A DNA stretch of 64,000 bases, taken from positions 124,001-188,000 of the forward strand of contig SZZY01000009.1 of NCBI GenBank assembly GCA_009830035.1. The letters run 5' to 3'. Positions 56,045-63,842 of this stretch are shown here, in pieces; the stretch's first letter is position 1, and every line of letters begins with the position of its first letter. The translations under genes were made by a program, and so were the position numbers. A model generated the notes under the pieces. That model made no database searches and had not been told where the DNA came from. It saw only the letters and a list, made by a program, of their open reading frames with translations. This DNA is from Pantoea sp. Eser. GTDB lineage: Bacteria > Pseudomonadota > Gammaproteobacteria > Enterobacterales > Enterobacteriaceae.

Positions 56045-57592
56045 TTATTCAAACGCGGCCTGGTTAAACAGCAGGTTACCGTCCGGCAGCATCGAAACGC
56101 CGTTCAGCCCTTTGCGCTTGCCGACTAAGTTATCGGGCGTGCCGAGGAAGGAGGTGGGTGCCGCTTTCCACAGCAGGATCTGCGCCTCAGCGTAAGCAGC
56201 GGCGCGTTTTGCCGGATCGGCGGTGGCCAGTCCGCCGGCGATCGCTTTATCCACCGCCGGGTTGCGCTGTAATAGGAGACGTTATAGGAGGTCGGCACCC
56301 AGGATTCGGTGGCGAACAGCGGACGCAACGCCCAGTCGGCATCGCCGGTTGAGGTCGACCAGCCGCCATAATAGAGGTCAAACTCCGCCTGTTTGGGGTC
56401 TTTCACGCCCCACAGTTTCGCGTTGCGGCTACCGGAATCCATCGGGGTGACCGTGACGCGGATACCGACCGTCGCCAGTTGCGCCTTCAGGAACTGCGCA
56501 GCCCGGACGCTGGCCGTGGCATTGGTACACCACAGTTTAAGGTCCAGTCCCTGACCGTAGCCCGCCGCCTGCAGCAATTTTTTGGCTTCATCCGGCGCGT
56601 AGCGATAATTGGGCTCGCTCTGCGGCTGATAGAACTGCACACCCTCGGGCATGGCTAAACGGGTGGGCGTGCCCATCCCGGCGAAACCGACTTTCAGCCA
56701 CAGCGAGCGGTCGATGGCGTAGTTAATCGCCTGGCGGACCCGCACGTCAGCCAGCGCTTTGTGTTGGGTATTGATCGCCATGTAGTAGAGGTAAATGCTG
56801 GGATCGCGCTGAATAGCCAGCTTAGTGTCGCTCTGCACCGTGCCGATCAGGTCTGACGGCAGCGGATAGATCGCATCAACCTAGCCGAACTTCAGTGCCG
56901 CCACCCGGGTCGCATCTTCCGGACTCGGCGAGAAAATCACCTTGTCGACTTTCGGCCAGCCGGTTTTCCAGTAGCCGTCATATTTCACCATGCTGACGGT
57001 TTTGCCCGGCTGCCACGCCACAAACCGGAACGGCCCGGTGCCGACCGGATGCAGCCGCAACTGCGCCTCCTGCGGATACTGGCTGAGGATCGCCGGGCTC
57101 CACATCACCGCCAACGGATGCGCCAGCGTATTGATAAACGCGCCAAATGACTGGTTAAGATCGATCTGCACTTTATCTGGTGCCAGTACGGTAACGGTTT
57201 TAATCATGCGATACAGGCTATTACGATTCAGCCCTTTGCTCTGGTCGGCCAGGCGATCCAGGTTGGCTTTCACCACATCCGCATTAAAAGGGTGTGCCAT
57301 CCCGAAACGTCACGCCCTGGCGCAGCGTGAGGGTGAACTGGGTGGCATCCTCGTTGCTGGTGTAGCCGGTCGCCAGCTAGGGCGTTAGCGTCATTCGGGC
57401 ATCGAACTGGAACAGACGTTCGAAAATACCGCTCTGCACCGAGTAGCTGATGTTGTCGGAGGTATCGTGCGGATCCAGACCGGTAATATCGGCATACATC
57501 GAAATGCGCAAATCCTGTGCCTGCGCGGCGACAGTGGCCAGAGACAATAGCAATCCCGTGGCGAGAGCAGTGCGACGTAATAATGGCTTCAT
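56045..57592 (-). pseudogene. Peptide-type ABC solute-binding protein (SBP_bac_5), two amber codons and frameshifts
   Basis: ATG 57592 after CAGGAGACACC; signal peptide [19 protein letters not shown] to AQA. The mature protein starts [21 protein letters not shown], typical of GsiB/DppA. Lesions: TAG 57377-57379 (LTPxLATGY), an extra T near 57290, TAG 56881-56883 (KFGxVDAIYPLP), and a two-base insertion near 56260 (YYSNPAVDKAI). The rest, including VRVRQAINYAIDRSLW, is well preserved to TAA 56045. Both ambers fit Dcm-site transitions. Confidence 0.88.
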
Positions 57593-57614
57593 GGTGTCTC
57601 CTGGTATTGATGAA

Positions 57615-59198
57615 TTAACGCAACAAAGGGGTTTCGGCCACCCAGTGATCGGGCGCGACCTGGCGGTAACGGTTTTTTCTACCGTCTCTCCTACCCTGCG
57701 CAGCGGCGAGGGAATTTCACTGTCATCAAACTGACGAACCGGACGGCTGAGCGGATCGGCCACCGGCACCGAGGCCAGCAGCCGTTGGGTATAAGGATGC
57801 TGTGGCTGGTTAAACAGCGACTGACGCGGGCCAATCTCGACGATCTGTCCGAGGTACATCACCGCCACACGGTTGGCGATGCGTTCCACCACGGCCATAT
57901 CTTGCGAGATAAAAATCCATGCCACGCCGGTTTGCTGTTGCAGATCCATCATCAGGTTCACCACCTGTGCCTGTATTGACAAATCCAGCGCTGACACCGC
58001 TTCGTCGGCGATTATCACTTTAGGCCGCAGCGCCATGGCGCGGGCAATGGCGATACGCTGACGCTGACCGCCGGAGAATTAATGGGGATAGCGTTGCGCG
58101 TGCTCAGGGGCCAGACCGACGCTTTTCAGCAGTGCCTCAACCTGCGGCGTGGCTTCGCTGAGCGAGAAGACCAGCCCGTGCAACAGCAGCGGTTCGGCAA
58201 TGGTGAAGCCAACGGTCAGCCGGGGATTGAGTGAGGCATAAGGGTCCTGAAACACCATCTGTATTTCACGACGCAGCGGCTGAAACTGCGCCTCCTTCAG
58301 CGTGGCGATTTCGTTGCCCTGAAAATAGATGCTTTCCGCCTCGCTGGTCAGCAGACGCATCAGCGCCCGGCCACCGCGTAAACCCGATGCGTCAGCGCTG
58401 AGAAAATGCCGCTGCGGACCGGGAAGTACACTTTCAGGCCGCGCACGTCGAGCAGCGGCTGATCGTCATAACGGGCGGTTTGCTGGCTGCCGGCGGGCGT
58501 CGCGGCCAGGCATGCTCGCGTATATCACCCAGCTTTGGCACTGCGGCTAATAACGCTTTGGTGTAGTCATGCTGTGGCGCGCTGAAGATCTCCGCTACCG
58601 GGCCCTGTTCGACCACGTTACCGCGATACATCACCACCACCCGATCGGCGACTTCTGCCACCACGCCCATATCATGGGTGATAAACAGCACCGCCATCTG
58701 CTTCTGCTGCTGCAAATCGCGCAGGATATGCAGGATGCGCGCCTGAACGGTGACATCCAGCGCGGTAGTCGGCTCATCCGCCATCAGCAATTGCGGATCG
58801 CAGGCCAGCGCCTGCGCAATCATTACCCGTTGCCGCATGCCGCCGGAGAGTGCGTGCGGGTAACTTTTCATCACCCGATCAACATCCGCTATCCGTACCT
58901 GCTGCAGCAACGTTCGAGCCCGCGCTGTCGCCTGCACGTTGTCACACAGCTGGTGGTCACGCAGCGCCTCCGTCAGCTGGTCGCCTACCCGCAATACCGG
59001 ATTCAGCGAAGTCATCGGCTCCTGAAAGATCATCGCCATTTCGCGACCGCGCAGCTTGCGCCGTTGTTCTTCGCTGAGGGTGTTGAGATCGTGCTGTTTA
59101 CCGCTGCGTCCGCGGAAACTGACGCAAAGATTGTCAATGGTGAGCACCGGCGCAGCGGCATTCCGGGCTGTCGGGTTAAGAGAATAAGTGTCCGTCAT
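57615..59198 (-). pseudogene. Dual-domain peptide ABC ATPase (GsiA type) missing both Walker A motifs
   Basis: ATG 59198 starts a fused two-ATPase protein. First half: [18 protein letters not shown] jumps in frame to [15 protein letters not shown], deleting Walker [12 protein letters not shown]-loop, [15 protein letters not shown] signature and [13 protein letters not shown] remain. Second half: [18 protein letters not shown] breaks near 58380 and resumes at LMRLLTSEAES in another frame, again without Walker A. TAA at 58079-58081 replaces Glu in [12 protein letters not shown]. The end is frameshifted near 57665 (native stop 57615-57617). Cannot bind ATP. Confidence 0.88.
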
Positions 59199-59214
59199 CG
59201 TTGCTCCGGGGGCG

Positions 59215-59830
59215 TTAAAGCCAGATACGGCCTTGCGAATACGAGAGGAAGGGCGAGCTGTCAGCCGCCAGCCAGATTGGACCATCAAGATCGACATACT
59301 CCGCGCCGGTTGCCACCGGCAGTGCCGCCTCCATCGCCAGCGCCTCCGTCAGGCCGCCGCACTTGTCGAGCTTGATGTTGATCATTTCGTAGCGATGCCG
59401 CAGTGCGGCGATGTCCGCCACGGTATGGCAGCTTTCATCAGCGCAAAGGGGAATCGGATGGGGAAAATGCAGTAACTCGCTATCCTGAACCGCCGGTAAG
59501 GGCTGCTCGATCATGGCGATGTCATACGCCTGCAGGGCGGTGAAGAGCGAAGGCAGATCGAGACCGTGCCAGGCCTCATTGGCGTCGATAATCAGCGTCG
59601 CCTCGGGAGCAGCCGCGCGGATGGCCGCCACTTTCTCCACAATGTGCTGGTGGTCGAGTTTGATTTTCAGCAGCAGTGCGCCCCGTGATGCAGCGTCCGC
59701 GGCGGCACTCGCCGAGACCAATAAAACCGTCCTGTTCCAGCGTGACGCGAATCACCGTGACGGCAGTGCGGGTGCCGCGTGAAATCGCAAAGGGCTTCGC
59801 CAGCGGCAGCTCAGCCACCGCGATCTGCAT
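59215..59830 (-). pseudogene. dgcA: Enolase-superfamily racemase (dipeptide epimerase-like / DgcA), internally deleted
   Basis: ATG 59830 (AAGG upstream) encodes AELPLAKPFAISRGTRTAVTV, the capping domain of L-Ala-D/L-Glu epimerase-like enzymes. After GLGEC the sequence jumps to another frame. LKIKLDHQHIVEKVAAI (KxK catalytic Lys), LIIDANEAW, IEQPLPA, CADESCHT and INIKLDKCGGL follow, and then a second deletion removes GCMLCTS-type sequence before [13 protein letters not shown]. It directly follows a DUF1611 gene; that pair corresponds to the DgcN-DgcA D-glutamate route described in marine bacteria, the alternative being murein-dipeptide epimerisation. Confidence 0.7.
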
Positions 59831-59840
59831 GCGGCGTACC

Positions 59841-60837
59841 TTAGCCACGCTCCTGCAACAGTGCAGCGATGGCATCAATACCAAAACGCACCGGATCGGT
59901 GGCAGGCACGTCAAATTCTGCACTGACCTGCGCGCAACAGTCACGGGCCTGCGGTTCACCGTAACCGGAGGTGTTGATGGCGAATCCGGCCAGCTTCACC
60001 TCATCACTGGTCACGCTGGCCGCCCGCAGATTGGCCGCCACACACTCTGCCAAGCTGACCATCGGCTGATGCGGCAGGTGGCGCATATGCGGGCGTCCCA
60101 TCTCATGACACATCACCAGCCAGTGCGGTTGCGCGCCGTGAATCAGCCCCATGCTGACGCTTGCATAAGAGGGATGAAACAGCGAGCCCTGACCTTCGAC
60201 AATATCCCAGTGATCGTCTTCATTCGCCGGTGACAGCGCTTCGGCGGCGCCGGCGATAAAGTCAGCGATCACCGCATCAATTGCAATGCCTTCACCGGCT
60301 ACCAGAATGCCGGTCTGGCCGGTGGCGCGGAAATCCGCCTTCATGCCGCGATCGCGCATCGCCGCTTCCAGGGCCAGTAAGGTGTACATTTTGCCAACAG
60401 AGCAGTCGGTGCCCACCGTCAGTACCCTTTTGCCGCTGCGTTTTTTACCGCTGCCGACCGTCAGTGCTGGCCGCATATGGCGGATATCAAACAACGCCAC
60501 GCCCTGTTCTGCCGCCAGCGCCACCAGTTCCGGCTCATCGGCCAGACGATGGTGCAAACCGCTGGCCACGTTCAGGCCCGCTTTGATTGCGCCGGTCACG
60601 GTTTCAAGCCAGTGTGCCGGTAAATAGCCGCCGGCATTGGCGGCAATACCAGCGTTTTCGCACCGCGCGCTTTGGCACTGGCGATATCCAGCGTCTCAAT
60701 CCCCAGACTGACGGTACCGCCGGGCAGGGACATTCGCACTGTTCCGGACGCCAGACCTGAATGCCGCGCGCCGTTTTCGCCGCCAGCGGATCGGTGACAT
60801 CGCCAAGGAAAAGTAGATAGGGTTGAGGGATCAGCAT
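59841..60837 (-). pseudogene. dgcN: DUF1611 protein (DgcN-type N-acetyltransferase), frameshifted near the N-terminus
   Basis: ATG 60837 (MLIPQPYLLFLGDVTDPLAAK) then two frame changes near 60735 and 60640; the middle block SLPGGTVSLGIETLDIASAKARGA is in another frame. From 60599 the C-terminal 252 codons are clean: VLTVGTDCSVGKMYTLLAL (P-loop-like), VEGQGSLFHPSYASVSMGLIHG, MCHEMGRPHMRHL, GFAINTSGYGE. DUF1611 members paired with a dipeptide-epimerase-like gene were characterised as D-glutamate N-acetyltransferase. Non-functional here. Confidence 0.75.
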
Positions 60838-60925: not shown

Positions 60926-60942
60926 TATAACCTGAGGTTATA
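60926..60942. promoter_or_regulatory. Perfect palindrome upstream of dgcN, candidate operator
   Basis: TATAACCT-G-AGGTTATA, a perfect 8-bp inverted repeat around one central base, 89 bp upstream of the dgcN start. Size and symmetry suit a dimeric regulator. The regulator is not identifiable from the window. Confidence 0.5.
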
Positions 60943-61085
60943 GTCAGAGGCGGCGCTTATGACAACAGCCGATAAGCGAATTAAAACAGCAGGGTTAGGC
61001 TAACCAGAGGGGCTGGAACAGAAGAAAAAGTGATAATCATCGGTCGATCCCTGACCGCGATTATCGAGGGTTTCTTGCGGAGCGC

Positions 61086-61163
61086 TTAGTACATCGCACC
61101 CGGCGGTACGTGTTTGAAGATCTCGACGCAAGCGCGGAACACGTAGTTAAAAATGCGTTTCAT
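61086..61163 (-). CDS. azuC: AzuC-like small protein (25 residues)
   Basis: Minus-strand ORF of 25 codons from ATG 61163 to TAA 61086-61088. The C-terminal part reads FKHVPPGAMY, matching the conserved end of E. coli AzuC (FKDVPPGNMFR), and the N-terminal half is basic and amphipathic (MKRIFNYVFRACVEI), as in AzuC, which associates with the inner membrane. In E. coli the transcript AzuCR is dual-function: the 28-residue protein binds GlpD, and the RNA also base-pairs with mRNAs. A CRP-like site and a TATACT box lie upstream. The ribosome-binding site is weak (AAGTG). Identity rests on a short motif, so moderate confidence. Confidence 0.6.
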   Translation of the reverse strand: MKRIFNYVFRACVEIFKHVPPGAMY

Positions 61164-61203
61164 GTGACACTTGATACAAAATTAGTTGAAGAAATACGCG
61201 AAA

Positions 61204-61253
61204 AGTATAACTTCAGCGCGTTTTATCGGCAATAAATTTTGAACCAGATCACA
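61204..61253 (-). promoter_or_regulatory. Putative promoter and CRP site of the azuC-like gene
   Basis: On the minus strand, TGTGATCTGGTTCAAA (61253-61238) matches TGTGA-N6-TCACA at nine of ten positions, within a flanking A/T context typical of CRP sites. TATACT (61209-61204) lies 28 bp further on and about 40 bp before the start codon. E. coli azuCR is under CRP control, so arrangement and identity support each other. Confidence 0.55.
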
Positions 61254-61256
61254 AAA

Positions 61257-61275
61257 TTGCGCTTTTTATGCGCAA
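61257..61275 (-). terminator. Probable terminator of mntP
   Basis: On the minus strand TTGCGC (61275-61270), loop ATAAAAA, GCGCAA (61262-61257), then four T residues. It starts 8 bases after the mntP stop and overlaps no coding sequence. Short stem, so moderate support. Confidence 0.45.
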
Positions 61276-61282
61276 AAAGCCG

Positions 61283-61858
61283 TTAAGCGGCCTGATCGAG
61301 ATGCTGCAGCAATATGGTCGCGCCGACAGCTATCAGCACCAGACCGCCGAGCACTTCCGCCCATTTGCCGAGTACCGGACCAATAAAGCGTCCCACCAGC
61401 ACGCCGGTGGTGGCCATAACGGTGGTAGCGGCCCCGATGGTCAGCGCGGTGGTAATAATGTTGACCTGCAGGAAGGCCAGTCCCACACCGACCGCCAGCG
61501 CATCAAGGCTGGTCGCTACCGCGGTGGTGGCCAGTACCATAAAGCCATGGCTTTGCGGCGCTTCACAGGGTTCAGCGACGGCGGTCTGACGGAAACCTTC
61601 CATCATCATCCGCCCGCCTAAAAATGCCAGCAGAATAAAAGCGATCCAGTGGTCCCACGCCATGATATAACGACTGGCGGCCAGGCCAAGCGCCCAGCCA
61701 ATCAGCGGCGTTAAGGCTTCGATTGAGCCAAAAATCAGACCGGTGCGCAACGCTTCTTTAAAACCAGGACGATGCAAGATGGCACCTTCGCCCAGTGCAG
61801 CAGCAAACGCGTCCATCGACATACCCAGTGCAAGAATTAAGGTGGCAATAAAGGTCAC
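61283..61858 (-). CDS. mntP: Manganese efflux pump MntP
   Basis: 191-residue six-helix Mn(II) exporter. The two inverted halves carry the ligand motifs [14 protein letters not shown] and [14 protein letters not shown], with the membrane Asp residues essential in E. coli Mnt[13 protein letters not shown] is also conserved. The start is GTG at 61858 behind AGGTGA. Intact. An MntR box lies about 140 bp upstream, but I see no yybP-ykoY manganese riboswitch, unlike E. coli. Confidence 0.95.
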
Positions 61859-62418: not shown

Positions 62419-63842
62419 GTCGGGCGGTATGCGCATCGACCAGCGCTTTCAGGCGTGTGCGCTACGCGCATAGCCGTCTCGCGGTAACTGAGCCGCACCG
62501 AGCAGCAGTCCGGCGCAGCGTTGTTCGTCGCGCTGATACCAGATCGACAGCGGTGACGGGGCCATGCCATGGGCTAGCGCTTGCTGCGCAATCAGCTGAT
62601 CCGGCGTACCGGCCGGCAATCTGACAATAACCGACAGCCCGGCACGTTGCACCGCGGGAAAATGGGGTTGCAGAGCGGCCATCATCTGCTCCAGTCGTTC
62701 ATGGTAGACCCGCTTCATACGCCGCATGAAGTGCCCTTCCCGCAGGAAAACCTACCGCATAATGGAGCAGTCCCGACGACGCCGGTGCTAACAGCGCACT
62801 AATCATTCGCAAAGCGCGAGACCAGAGCGGGAGGCACCACCATAAAGCCGAGCCGTAATCGCGGCATCAGCGATTTGCTGAAGGTGCCGATATGCAGCAC
62901 CCGGCCTTCACTGTCGAGCGCCGCCAGCGCCGGTGCGGCCCGGTGACCGGACTGCAGTTCGCCCAGATAATCATCTTCAATGATCCAGCGCTGCTGATGG
63001 CTGGCCCAGTTAAGCAACACATGGCGGCGTGCCGGCGACATCGTTACGCCGAGCGGCGCCTGCTGGCCCGGCGTGACCAGCGCAAACGCCGCATCCGGTG
63101 CCCGCGCCAGACCTTCCTCAACCTGCAGGCCTTCGGCGTCGACCGCAACCGGCCTTACCCGCAGGGTTTCCACCGCCCGCCGGGCGACCATAAAGCCCGG
63201 ATCTTCCAGCCAGGCCTGTTTCCCCTGAAAATCCATTGCCAGGCCAATCAGGCCCATCGCCCCCGGCATAGCCGTTAGTGATAAAAATTTGATCGGCATG
63301 ACAGCGCACCCCGCGCGCGACGGCCAGCCAGGCAACCAGTGCCTGGCGCAGTGCCGGCGTGCCGCGCGGATCGGGGTAACTGGCCGGTTTACCGACCAGC
63401 GCCCGCGTCTGACGTTGCAGGATGCGTAGCCAGACTCTGGCCAGGAAGCTGTCGCTGACGGGAATGCCTATCTGGAACGTCAGGGGCGGCGAGTTGTAAT
63501 CCTCTTCGCCCTCGCGCAGTGACAGCGGCACTACAGCTTGCACACCAGCCGTTTCACTCAGCATCGGCAGGGGTTCACAAAGGTGCCGGCCGCGCCCCGG
63601 GTCTGCAGAAACTGGCGATCCACCAGCATGTCATAGATGGCGCGCACCGTACCGCGTGCGACGCCGAGCTGGGCCGCTAAATCACGACAGGAAGGAAGCC
63701 GTGCGCCCGGCGGCAACCGCTGATCGATTATCGCCTGTTCAATCTGCTGCCGCAGCTGCTCACTCAGACCCCGCGGCTGGCTGCGTTTCAGCGTTAGCGT
63801 GGCGAAGAGCGATGGGCCAGTTAAATCGTCATTTTTTGGCAC
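62408..63842 (-). pseudogene. MocR/PdxR-type GntR-aminotransferase regulator, three or more frameshifts
   Basis: GTG 63842 starts a GntR winged helix (LSEQLRQQIEQAIIDQRLPPG, LPSCRDLAAQLGVARGTVRAIY). The aminotransferase-fold domain follows in pieces: PLTFQIGIPV, PDPRGTPALRQAL, GFMVARRAVE, RWIIEDDYLGEL and the PLP-lysine motif GTFSKSLMPRLRLGF. Frame changes near 63560, 63270, 62760 and probably near 62465, where TRLKALVDAHTARLSS would be the true end. Divergent from a carboxymuconolactone decarboxylase gene, the likely target. Confidence 0.82.

Follow-up and report, generated by a model that had tools for sequence, protein, structure and literature searches.

How the RNA and protein halves of dual-function RNAs evolve is a question on which the azuC locus bears; to our knowledge few bacterial dual-function RNAs have been characterized in detail. 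The question is raised here by a locus on the minus strand of a stretch of 64,000 nucleotides (the window), which the original prediction had described as an AzuC-like small gene with a CRP-like site, as in the catabolite-controlled dual-function RNA AzuCR of Escherichia coli. Homology and a CRP-type promoter pattern support this description in part, but the RNA part differs from its counterpart by a 3' hairpin that E. coli lacks. In E. coli K-12 the AzuCR peptide is reported to bind and activate GlpD, and the RNA (azuC/azuR, formerly IsrB) to repress cadA and galE by base pairing (PMC8672173, PMC10746267, PMC9977716). We consider it somewhat more probable than not that the locus in the window is an Erwiniaceae azuC whose RNA has gained a putative CsrA-type hairpin.

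The azuC ORF and its promoter

The ORF (61163..61086, minus strand; 25 codons plus stop, MKRIFNYVFRACVEIFKHVPPGAMY) is present in the window and gives a full-length match to the NCBIfam model NF033642 (stress_AzuC; E 1.2e-4). Its score of 21.6 bits fails the curated cut-off of 30 bits, whereas all of the eight relatives scored singly, out of 58, passed it (32.7-47.5 bits); at E values up to 1 the model matched 59 of 59 ORFs. Thus, by NF033642, the window ORF is a divergent homologue and not an equivalog. The suggestion that gene callers normally miss such genes therefore holds for the window copy, which lies under the NCBI cut-off, but not for the relatives that were scored. The peptide has the K-[DH]-V-P-P-G core in common with its E. 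coli homologue, and its first 18 residues are predicted to form an amphipathic helix, the maximal moment of which was equalled by 2.1% of 2000 shuffles. The Pfam search returned no family matching the peptide, while the three Rfam matches between 58000 and 64000 were all far under their gathering scores and none was relevant. The window's own genome contains a single azuC copy.

In a scan of named genomes, confirmation as a relative was obtained for 58 out of 76 pattern matches. Record titles place 53 of these relatives in Pantoea, Erwinia, Mixta, Winslowiella or Izhakiella. Pantoea and Erwinia belong to the Erwiniaceae, as do the other three genera according to a taxonomy look-up. The remaining loci are L104, L105, L123 and L137, the titles of which are other or vaguer than these genera, and L140 from Biostraticola, which is placed in the Bruguierivoracaceae. 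In L104 (titled Enterobacter cancerogenus) and L123 (Enterobacter ludwigii) the azuC locus is of the Pantoea type and includes mntP, dgcN and the hairpin; the titles of both records look misassigned. None of the 58 relatives has an interrupted azuC frame, which comprises 25 codons in 57 and 28 from the ATG in L137. Pooled over 54 distinct ORFs, a set without L137 and L140, pN/pS was 0.236, which is below every one of 200 column shuffles (mean 0.82, minimum 0.42; 60 sampled pairs each, stop codons skipped), although, as the azuC sequences are related, the comparison is a contrast and not a probability. The substitution pattern indicates that the ORF is under protein-level selection. The original prediction was to be given up if relatives lacked the ORF or conserved it without codon-level constraint; because the ORF is conserved, and with such constraint, it stands on this point, as does the claim of a 25-codon minus-strand AzuC-like ORF, for which conservation and the full-length NF033642 match now speak. 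The AzuC homology of the ORF and the 3' hairpin described below are both firmly supported at the sequence level, and the AzuC part of the locus is a divergent member of an already known family.

The distribution of azuC was explored with an 18-row AzuC profile, which at E values up to 1e-4 matched 88 of 295 genomes of the window's GTDB family, in 47 of 154 genera, with one match each. In an order-wide search of 394 genomes, 163 had some AzuC match at E up to 1, and the 19 strongest matches (E below 1e-8) were all in the same GTDB family; outside it, the best match among these genomes had an E value of 0.003 over 15 residues. The window peptide found no match in phages and the locus DNA none in plasmids, and the seven pattern matches in viral contigs included no confirmed relative. 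The E. coli AzuC peptide, searched against plasmids, matched six E. coli entries labelled as plasmids, of which three have the size of a chromosome, and, weakly, one other entry. If the peptide of the window is translated, GlpD might be its target as in E. coli. The gene glpD was found in all 88 azuC-bearing genomes; it is, however, also present in 110 genomes without azuC, and so the co-occurrence says little.

Upstream of the ORF, the claimed CRP-like site and TATACT box were both found. The CRP-like operator (TGTGATCTGGTTCAAA; 61238..61253, minus strand) is centred at about -48.5 from the predicted start, and the sigma-70 promoter TTGCCG-17-TATACT (61204..61232, minus strand) would direct transcription from about 61197. 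TGTGA-N6-TCA lies upstream of azuC in 58 of 58 relatives, with TGTGA and TCA invariant, and the distance from its centre to the first base of the -10 box is 36 nt in 52 relatives, 37 in four, 35 in one and 45 in one. The -10 box reads TATACT, TATAAT or TATATT in 56 of the 58. Taken alone, the promoter pattern is not beyond chance in a scan of the window, where one was found and 0.5 expected by shuffling. The azuR gene of E. coli MG1655 has a CRP-like site at the same spacing, with its centre 36 nt ahead of the -10 box, and a second at about -18.5, whereas only the first was seen in the part of the Erwiniaceae alignment examined. The 5' UTRs are similar, that of E. coli azuR being annotated as 42 nt and that in the window predicted to be about 34 nt. 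In the ribosome-binding region (61168..61181, minus strand) the window has CAAGTG where close relatives have CAGGTG, and it lacks the AGG/GGA/GAG core that 54 of 58 relatives have. The end of mntP is followed by a terminator-like stem (61257-61275, minus strand), the T run of which overlaps the azuC CRP-like site.

The sign of any CRP control can be approached by analogy. CRP is reported to repress E. coli AzuCR (PMC8672173). VcdRP of Vibrio cholerae, like the RNA predicted for the window locus a CRP-linked small RNA with a short ORF (29 residues in VcdRP), has a CRP site upstream of -35 that is reported to be repressing (PMC8672173). Repression is therefore the better guess for Erwiniaceae azuC. 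VcdRP differs in being 306 nt long, in a peptide that is reported to bind citrate synthase and in a putative Rho-independent terminator at its 3' end (PMC8672173).

The ORF may also carry information beyond the protein. GTA encodes the Val ahead of Pro-Pro in 39 of 49 distinct ORFs followed by the hairpin and in 19 of 29 E. coli-type ORFs, while an earlier conserved Val of azuC is GTA in four of 49. Besides the peptide, ACGTACCGCC in the azuC RNA itself may therefore be constrained, a signal which shared ancestry inflates. The GTA-CCG synonymous preference (61102-61111, minus strand) is common to Erwiniaceae and E. coli-type azuC, and is a possible RNA pairing segment.

The conserved 3' hairpin

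Just 3' of the azuC stop codon, and outside the range 61086-61253 to which the original prediction referred, is a 41-nt element (61031-61071, minus strand). It reads ACCCTCGATAAYCGCGGTCAGGGANNGACCGRTGRTTATCA, or differs little from this, and is shared by the window and 51 of the 58 relatives. An alignment of the upstream region and the 3' RNA part had been proposed as a check on the resemblance to AzuCR; the promoter is indeed conserved, but the 3' part carries a hairpin absent from E. coli, where azuR has a terminator-like stem straight after the ORF without the 41-nt element. The element is missing at L108, L109, L111, L126, L133, L137 and L140, indicating that azuC does not need it. With these seven loci left out, the alignment comprised 52 elements (51 relatives and the window), of which 30 were distinct.

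The element begins with a near-invariant ACCCTC lead (61066..61071, minus strand), a possible pairing seed, in which CCCT is invariant in 52 of 52 elements; in 26 of the 52 transcripts as predicted, its probability of being unpaired exceeds 0.8. The lead is followed by a conserved 13-bp RNA hairpin with one bulged base (61032..61065, minus strand). Its stem forms in 96.4% of alignment cells, and six of the 13 pairs have changed on both sides (52 elements, 30 distinct). Shuffles reached the values of the hairpin in 0 of 500 cases for paired cells, in 0 of 500 for compensatory pairs and in 4 of 500 for further pair types, and in slid versions of the stem 12.8-57.6% of cells were paired. RNAalifold alone returned 12 pairs, omitting an inner pair that fails in four of the 30 distinct rows. 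The clearest compensatory changes are the replacement of GGTC/GACC in the inner stem by CTTC/GAAG at two P. eucrina loci, and of TAA/TTA by TAG/CTA in L118 and L124. Eight elements folded singly had z-scores from -1.9 (L107) to -3.8. Because of G-U pairs, folding favours the sense strand over its complement in 29 of the 30 distinct elements, and thus the hairpin is a feature of RNA in the azuC sense. When searched for with a covariance model, the element was detected in nine of 295 genomes, once each and always directly after azuC. An alternative fold, in which ACCCU would pair with AGGG, was unsupported, as the variable base of the ANGGA motif in the hairpin tip changes to A, T or C while CCCT is fixed.

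After the hairpin the sequence is pyrimidine-rich, G-poor and weakly terminator-like (61011..61030, minus strand; G 13% over 60 nt). At L137 and L140, neither of which has the element, other hairpin-like sequences follow the ORF when read by eye and unfolded: L137 has ACCC in the loop of such a sequence and L140 has ACCCT ahead of a terminator-like stem. ACCCU may be older than the hairpin. VcdRP has a conserved 3' run of four cytosines (PMC8672173) that can be set beside the C-rich lead of the element, a comparison of features and not of homology.

The open-access literature searched, including that on azuC in Pantoea, yielded no description of the added hairpin domain. In the paper on Hfq-dependent sRNAs of E. 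amylovora no mention was found of the terms searched for (PMC4070566). The locus was not linked to the published list of P. ananatis sRNAs, the table of which gives coordinates without neighbouring genes (PMC6749038). The same peptide gene and promoter geometry have been kept, at one copy per genome where found, and one enteric branch has gained a structured 3' RNA domain.

Explanations for the hairpin tip

The tip of the hairpin (61048..61052, minus strand) carries the motif A-N-G-G-A, AGGGA in the window, which has the pattern of CsrA/RsmA-type sites. The A and the GGA are invariant in 52 of 52 elements; N can be any of the four bases, most often G, and the bases that follow vary. In minimum-energy folds of the 30 distinct elements the GGA is unpaired in all 30 and all five bases of the motif in 20, while the other ten folds pair one or two motif bases, mostly the A. 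Predicted loops have 7 nt in 18 of these elements, 5 in eight, 4 in two and 8 in two. In full-length predicted transcripts the mean unpaired probability of the five tip bases is above 0.8 in 45 of 52, the lowest value being 0.20. The element contains a single GGA in 45 of 52 cases, and elsewhere in the azuC transcripts GGA occurs in the 5' UTR in five of 51 and in the ORF in two of 51.

CsrA usually uses two sites. The hairpin loop bound by RsmE is ANGGAN, with contacts to A and GGA and a variable N, and the SELEX consensus is RUACARGGAUGU, mostly in six-base loops on short stems (PMC7652899). An A-N-G-G-A tip, as expected of CsrA/RsmA-binding RNA, is present in all 52 elements, with the GGA exposed in the folds of the 30 distinct ones, and as in RsmZ- and CsrB-type hairpins its A and GGA are fixed and its N is free. 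The six-nucleotide loop, which is preferred and not strictly required, occurs in none of these folds, and two sites per RNA, likewise a preference, are not the rule: in contrast with RsmZ- and CsrB-type sites, the element usually has a single site, mostly in a 7-nt loop, on a 13-bp stem, and forms the 3' part of a coding small RNA. The genome of the window carries both csrA and the CsrB RNA, and several predicted loops of the latter hold GGA. In E. coli, CsrA binds several sRNAs that act by base pairing, as well as one 3' UTR that was tested, but FnrS and CyaR gave CLIP peaks with negligible direct CsrA binding, so leads of this kind can fail; the main text of this CLIP study names neither azuC nor isrB (PMC5694010). 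We conclude that recognition by CsrA, inferred from the motif and its predicted exposure, is the best single explanation of the constraint on the tip.

A mechanism consistent with these patterns can be proposed. A CRP-controlled promoter would drive a short RNA of roughly 165-190 nt which, after the stop codon, would carry the lineage-specific 41-nt domain, ACCCUC followed by the 13-bp hairpin with its A-N-G-G-A tip. CsrA would most likely bind this tip and thereby control the stability, availability or pairing of the RNA, such that azuC would be subject to CRP at its promoter and to CsrA after transcription. In its fullest form, to which we hold only tentatively, the proposal is that azuC in Erwiniaceae is a peptide-coding RNA with a built-in CsrA site that joins CRP, Csr and a carbon-metabolism peptide, and that its RNA half could act on CsrA, by titration or recruitment, or form base pairs through ACCCUC. 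Base pairing with the targets of E. coli AzuCR was explored through duplex scores, by a method that gave overlong duplexes: the score of E. coli azuR with cadA was reached by 0 of 300 shuffles and that with galE by 196 of 300, while scores of the window RNA with eight galE copies (its own and those of related genomes) were reached by 1 to 220 of 300. If CsrA does bind, the meeting of the CRP and Csr networks on one peptide-coding RNA could be studied in a simple system, and azuC would illustrate how a small-protein gene already in place can acquire a function at the RNA level.

It could be argued that the hairpin is only a terminator or a 3'-end stabilizer of the azuC mRNA, such as a ProQ-type end, and that the tip has been kept for folding or through short divergence. 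The hairpin is at the expected 3' end, the window element folds with a minimum free energy of -16.6 kcal/mol and the tail is pyrimidine-rich, with at least four consecutive T within its first 12 nt at 26 of 52 loci; E. coli azuR has its terminator-like stem in the corresponding place, and ProQ is reported to stabilize AzuCR (PMC9977716). The other 26 loci, however, have no such T run, and a scan of the window for terminators did not pick out the hairpin. A terminator, moreover, needs neither the invariant A..GGA nor the ACCCT lead, yet both are among the invariant columns. We regard a purely terminating or stabilizing role as possible, although the less expected outcome.

The window copy and its surroundings

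A further explanation concerns the window strain itself, in which azuC may be decaying: the peptide would have lost its production or its use, and the RNA part alone would remain. The window peptide has Cys in place of Tyr12, which is present in 56 of 56 relatives of 25 residues (L137 and L140 not counted), and Ile in place of Thr15, Ile15 being found in none of the 56. These changes, the CAAGTG for CAGGTG before the start codon and the splitting of the neighbouring dgcN over three frames speak for decay. The ORF, promoter and hairpin are nevertheless intact: the -10 box, CRP-like site and hairpin element match those of close relatives, with no difference between the element and its counterpart in P. 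agglomerans L085. Compared with L083-L085, the azuC ORFs of which differ among themselves only synonymously, the window differs at two codons non-synonymously and at one or two synonymously, which is too little to test, and frameshifts of the dgcN type may be assembly errors. The protein half may be decaying in the window strain while promoter and hairpin are intact, but that the RNA part alone is left seems to us somewhat unlikely.

The location of azuC, which the original prediction placed between mntP and a dgcN remnant and held to be unlike that in E. coli, was borne out. The manganese efflux pump gene mntP (61283..61858, minus strand; PF02659) is the upstream neighbour and lies outside the unit, whereas E. 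coli azuC is between yecJ and yecR, and many E. coli-type copies adjoin yecJ. The end of mntP is within about 0.4 kb upstream of azuC in 45 of 58 loci and at about 1.7 kb in seven Erwinia-type loci; at six of the 58, mntP was not found within the flanking sequence examined. In Mixta L107, L112 and L125 no mntP was found near azuC, and azuC with its hairpin is within about 1 kb of a DUF1158 gene, the next gene upstream. On the other side, dgcN was found downstream of azuC at 15 of 58 loci, two of them without the hairpin, and the downstream gene is thus not constant.

This variation bears on the possibility that the 3' element, an inverted repeat in intergenic space, is a DNA operator or the leader of the next gene and is unrelated to azuC. 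A leader would be hard to reconcile with the changing downstream gene, and a DNA operator is disfavoured by the strand bias in folding described above. The element went undetected away from azuC in the 295 genomes, although 22 first-look candidates were scored per genome, out of thousands in most, under strict filters, and weak copies elsewhere could be missed. We consider both readings very improbable. That the ORF resembles AzuC by chance, as its shortness and its score under NCBI's cut-off might suggest, has a negligible probability and is counted as refuted by the conservation of ORF, frame, promoter and selection across the 58 confirmed loci.

Several genes near the locus appear broken. 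The split dgcN (DUF1611; 59841-60837, minus strand) is uninterrupted at the same place in P. agglomerans L085, and ABC-transporter ATPase-like and GntR/aminotransferase-type genes at 57377-59297 and 62449-63842 also seem to be broken into short ORFs; the stretch thus looks pseudogenized or poorly assembled. An inverted repeat, TATAACC-TGA-GGTTATA (60926-60942), occupies a similar place in several Pantoea loci with dgcN downstream, and is perhaps the operator of a dgcN operon.
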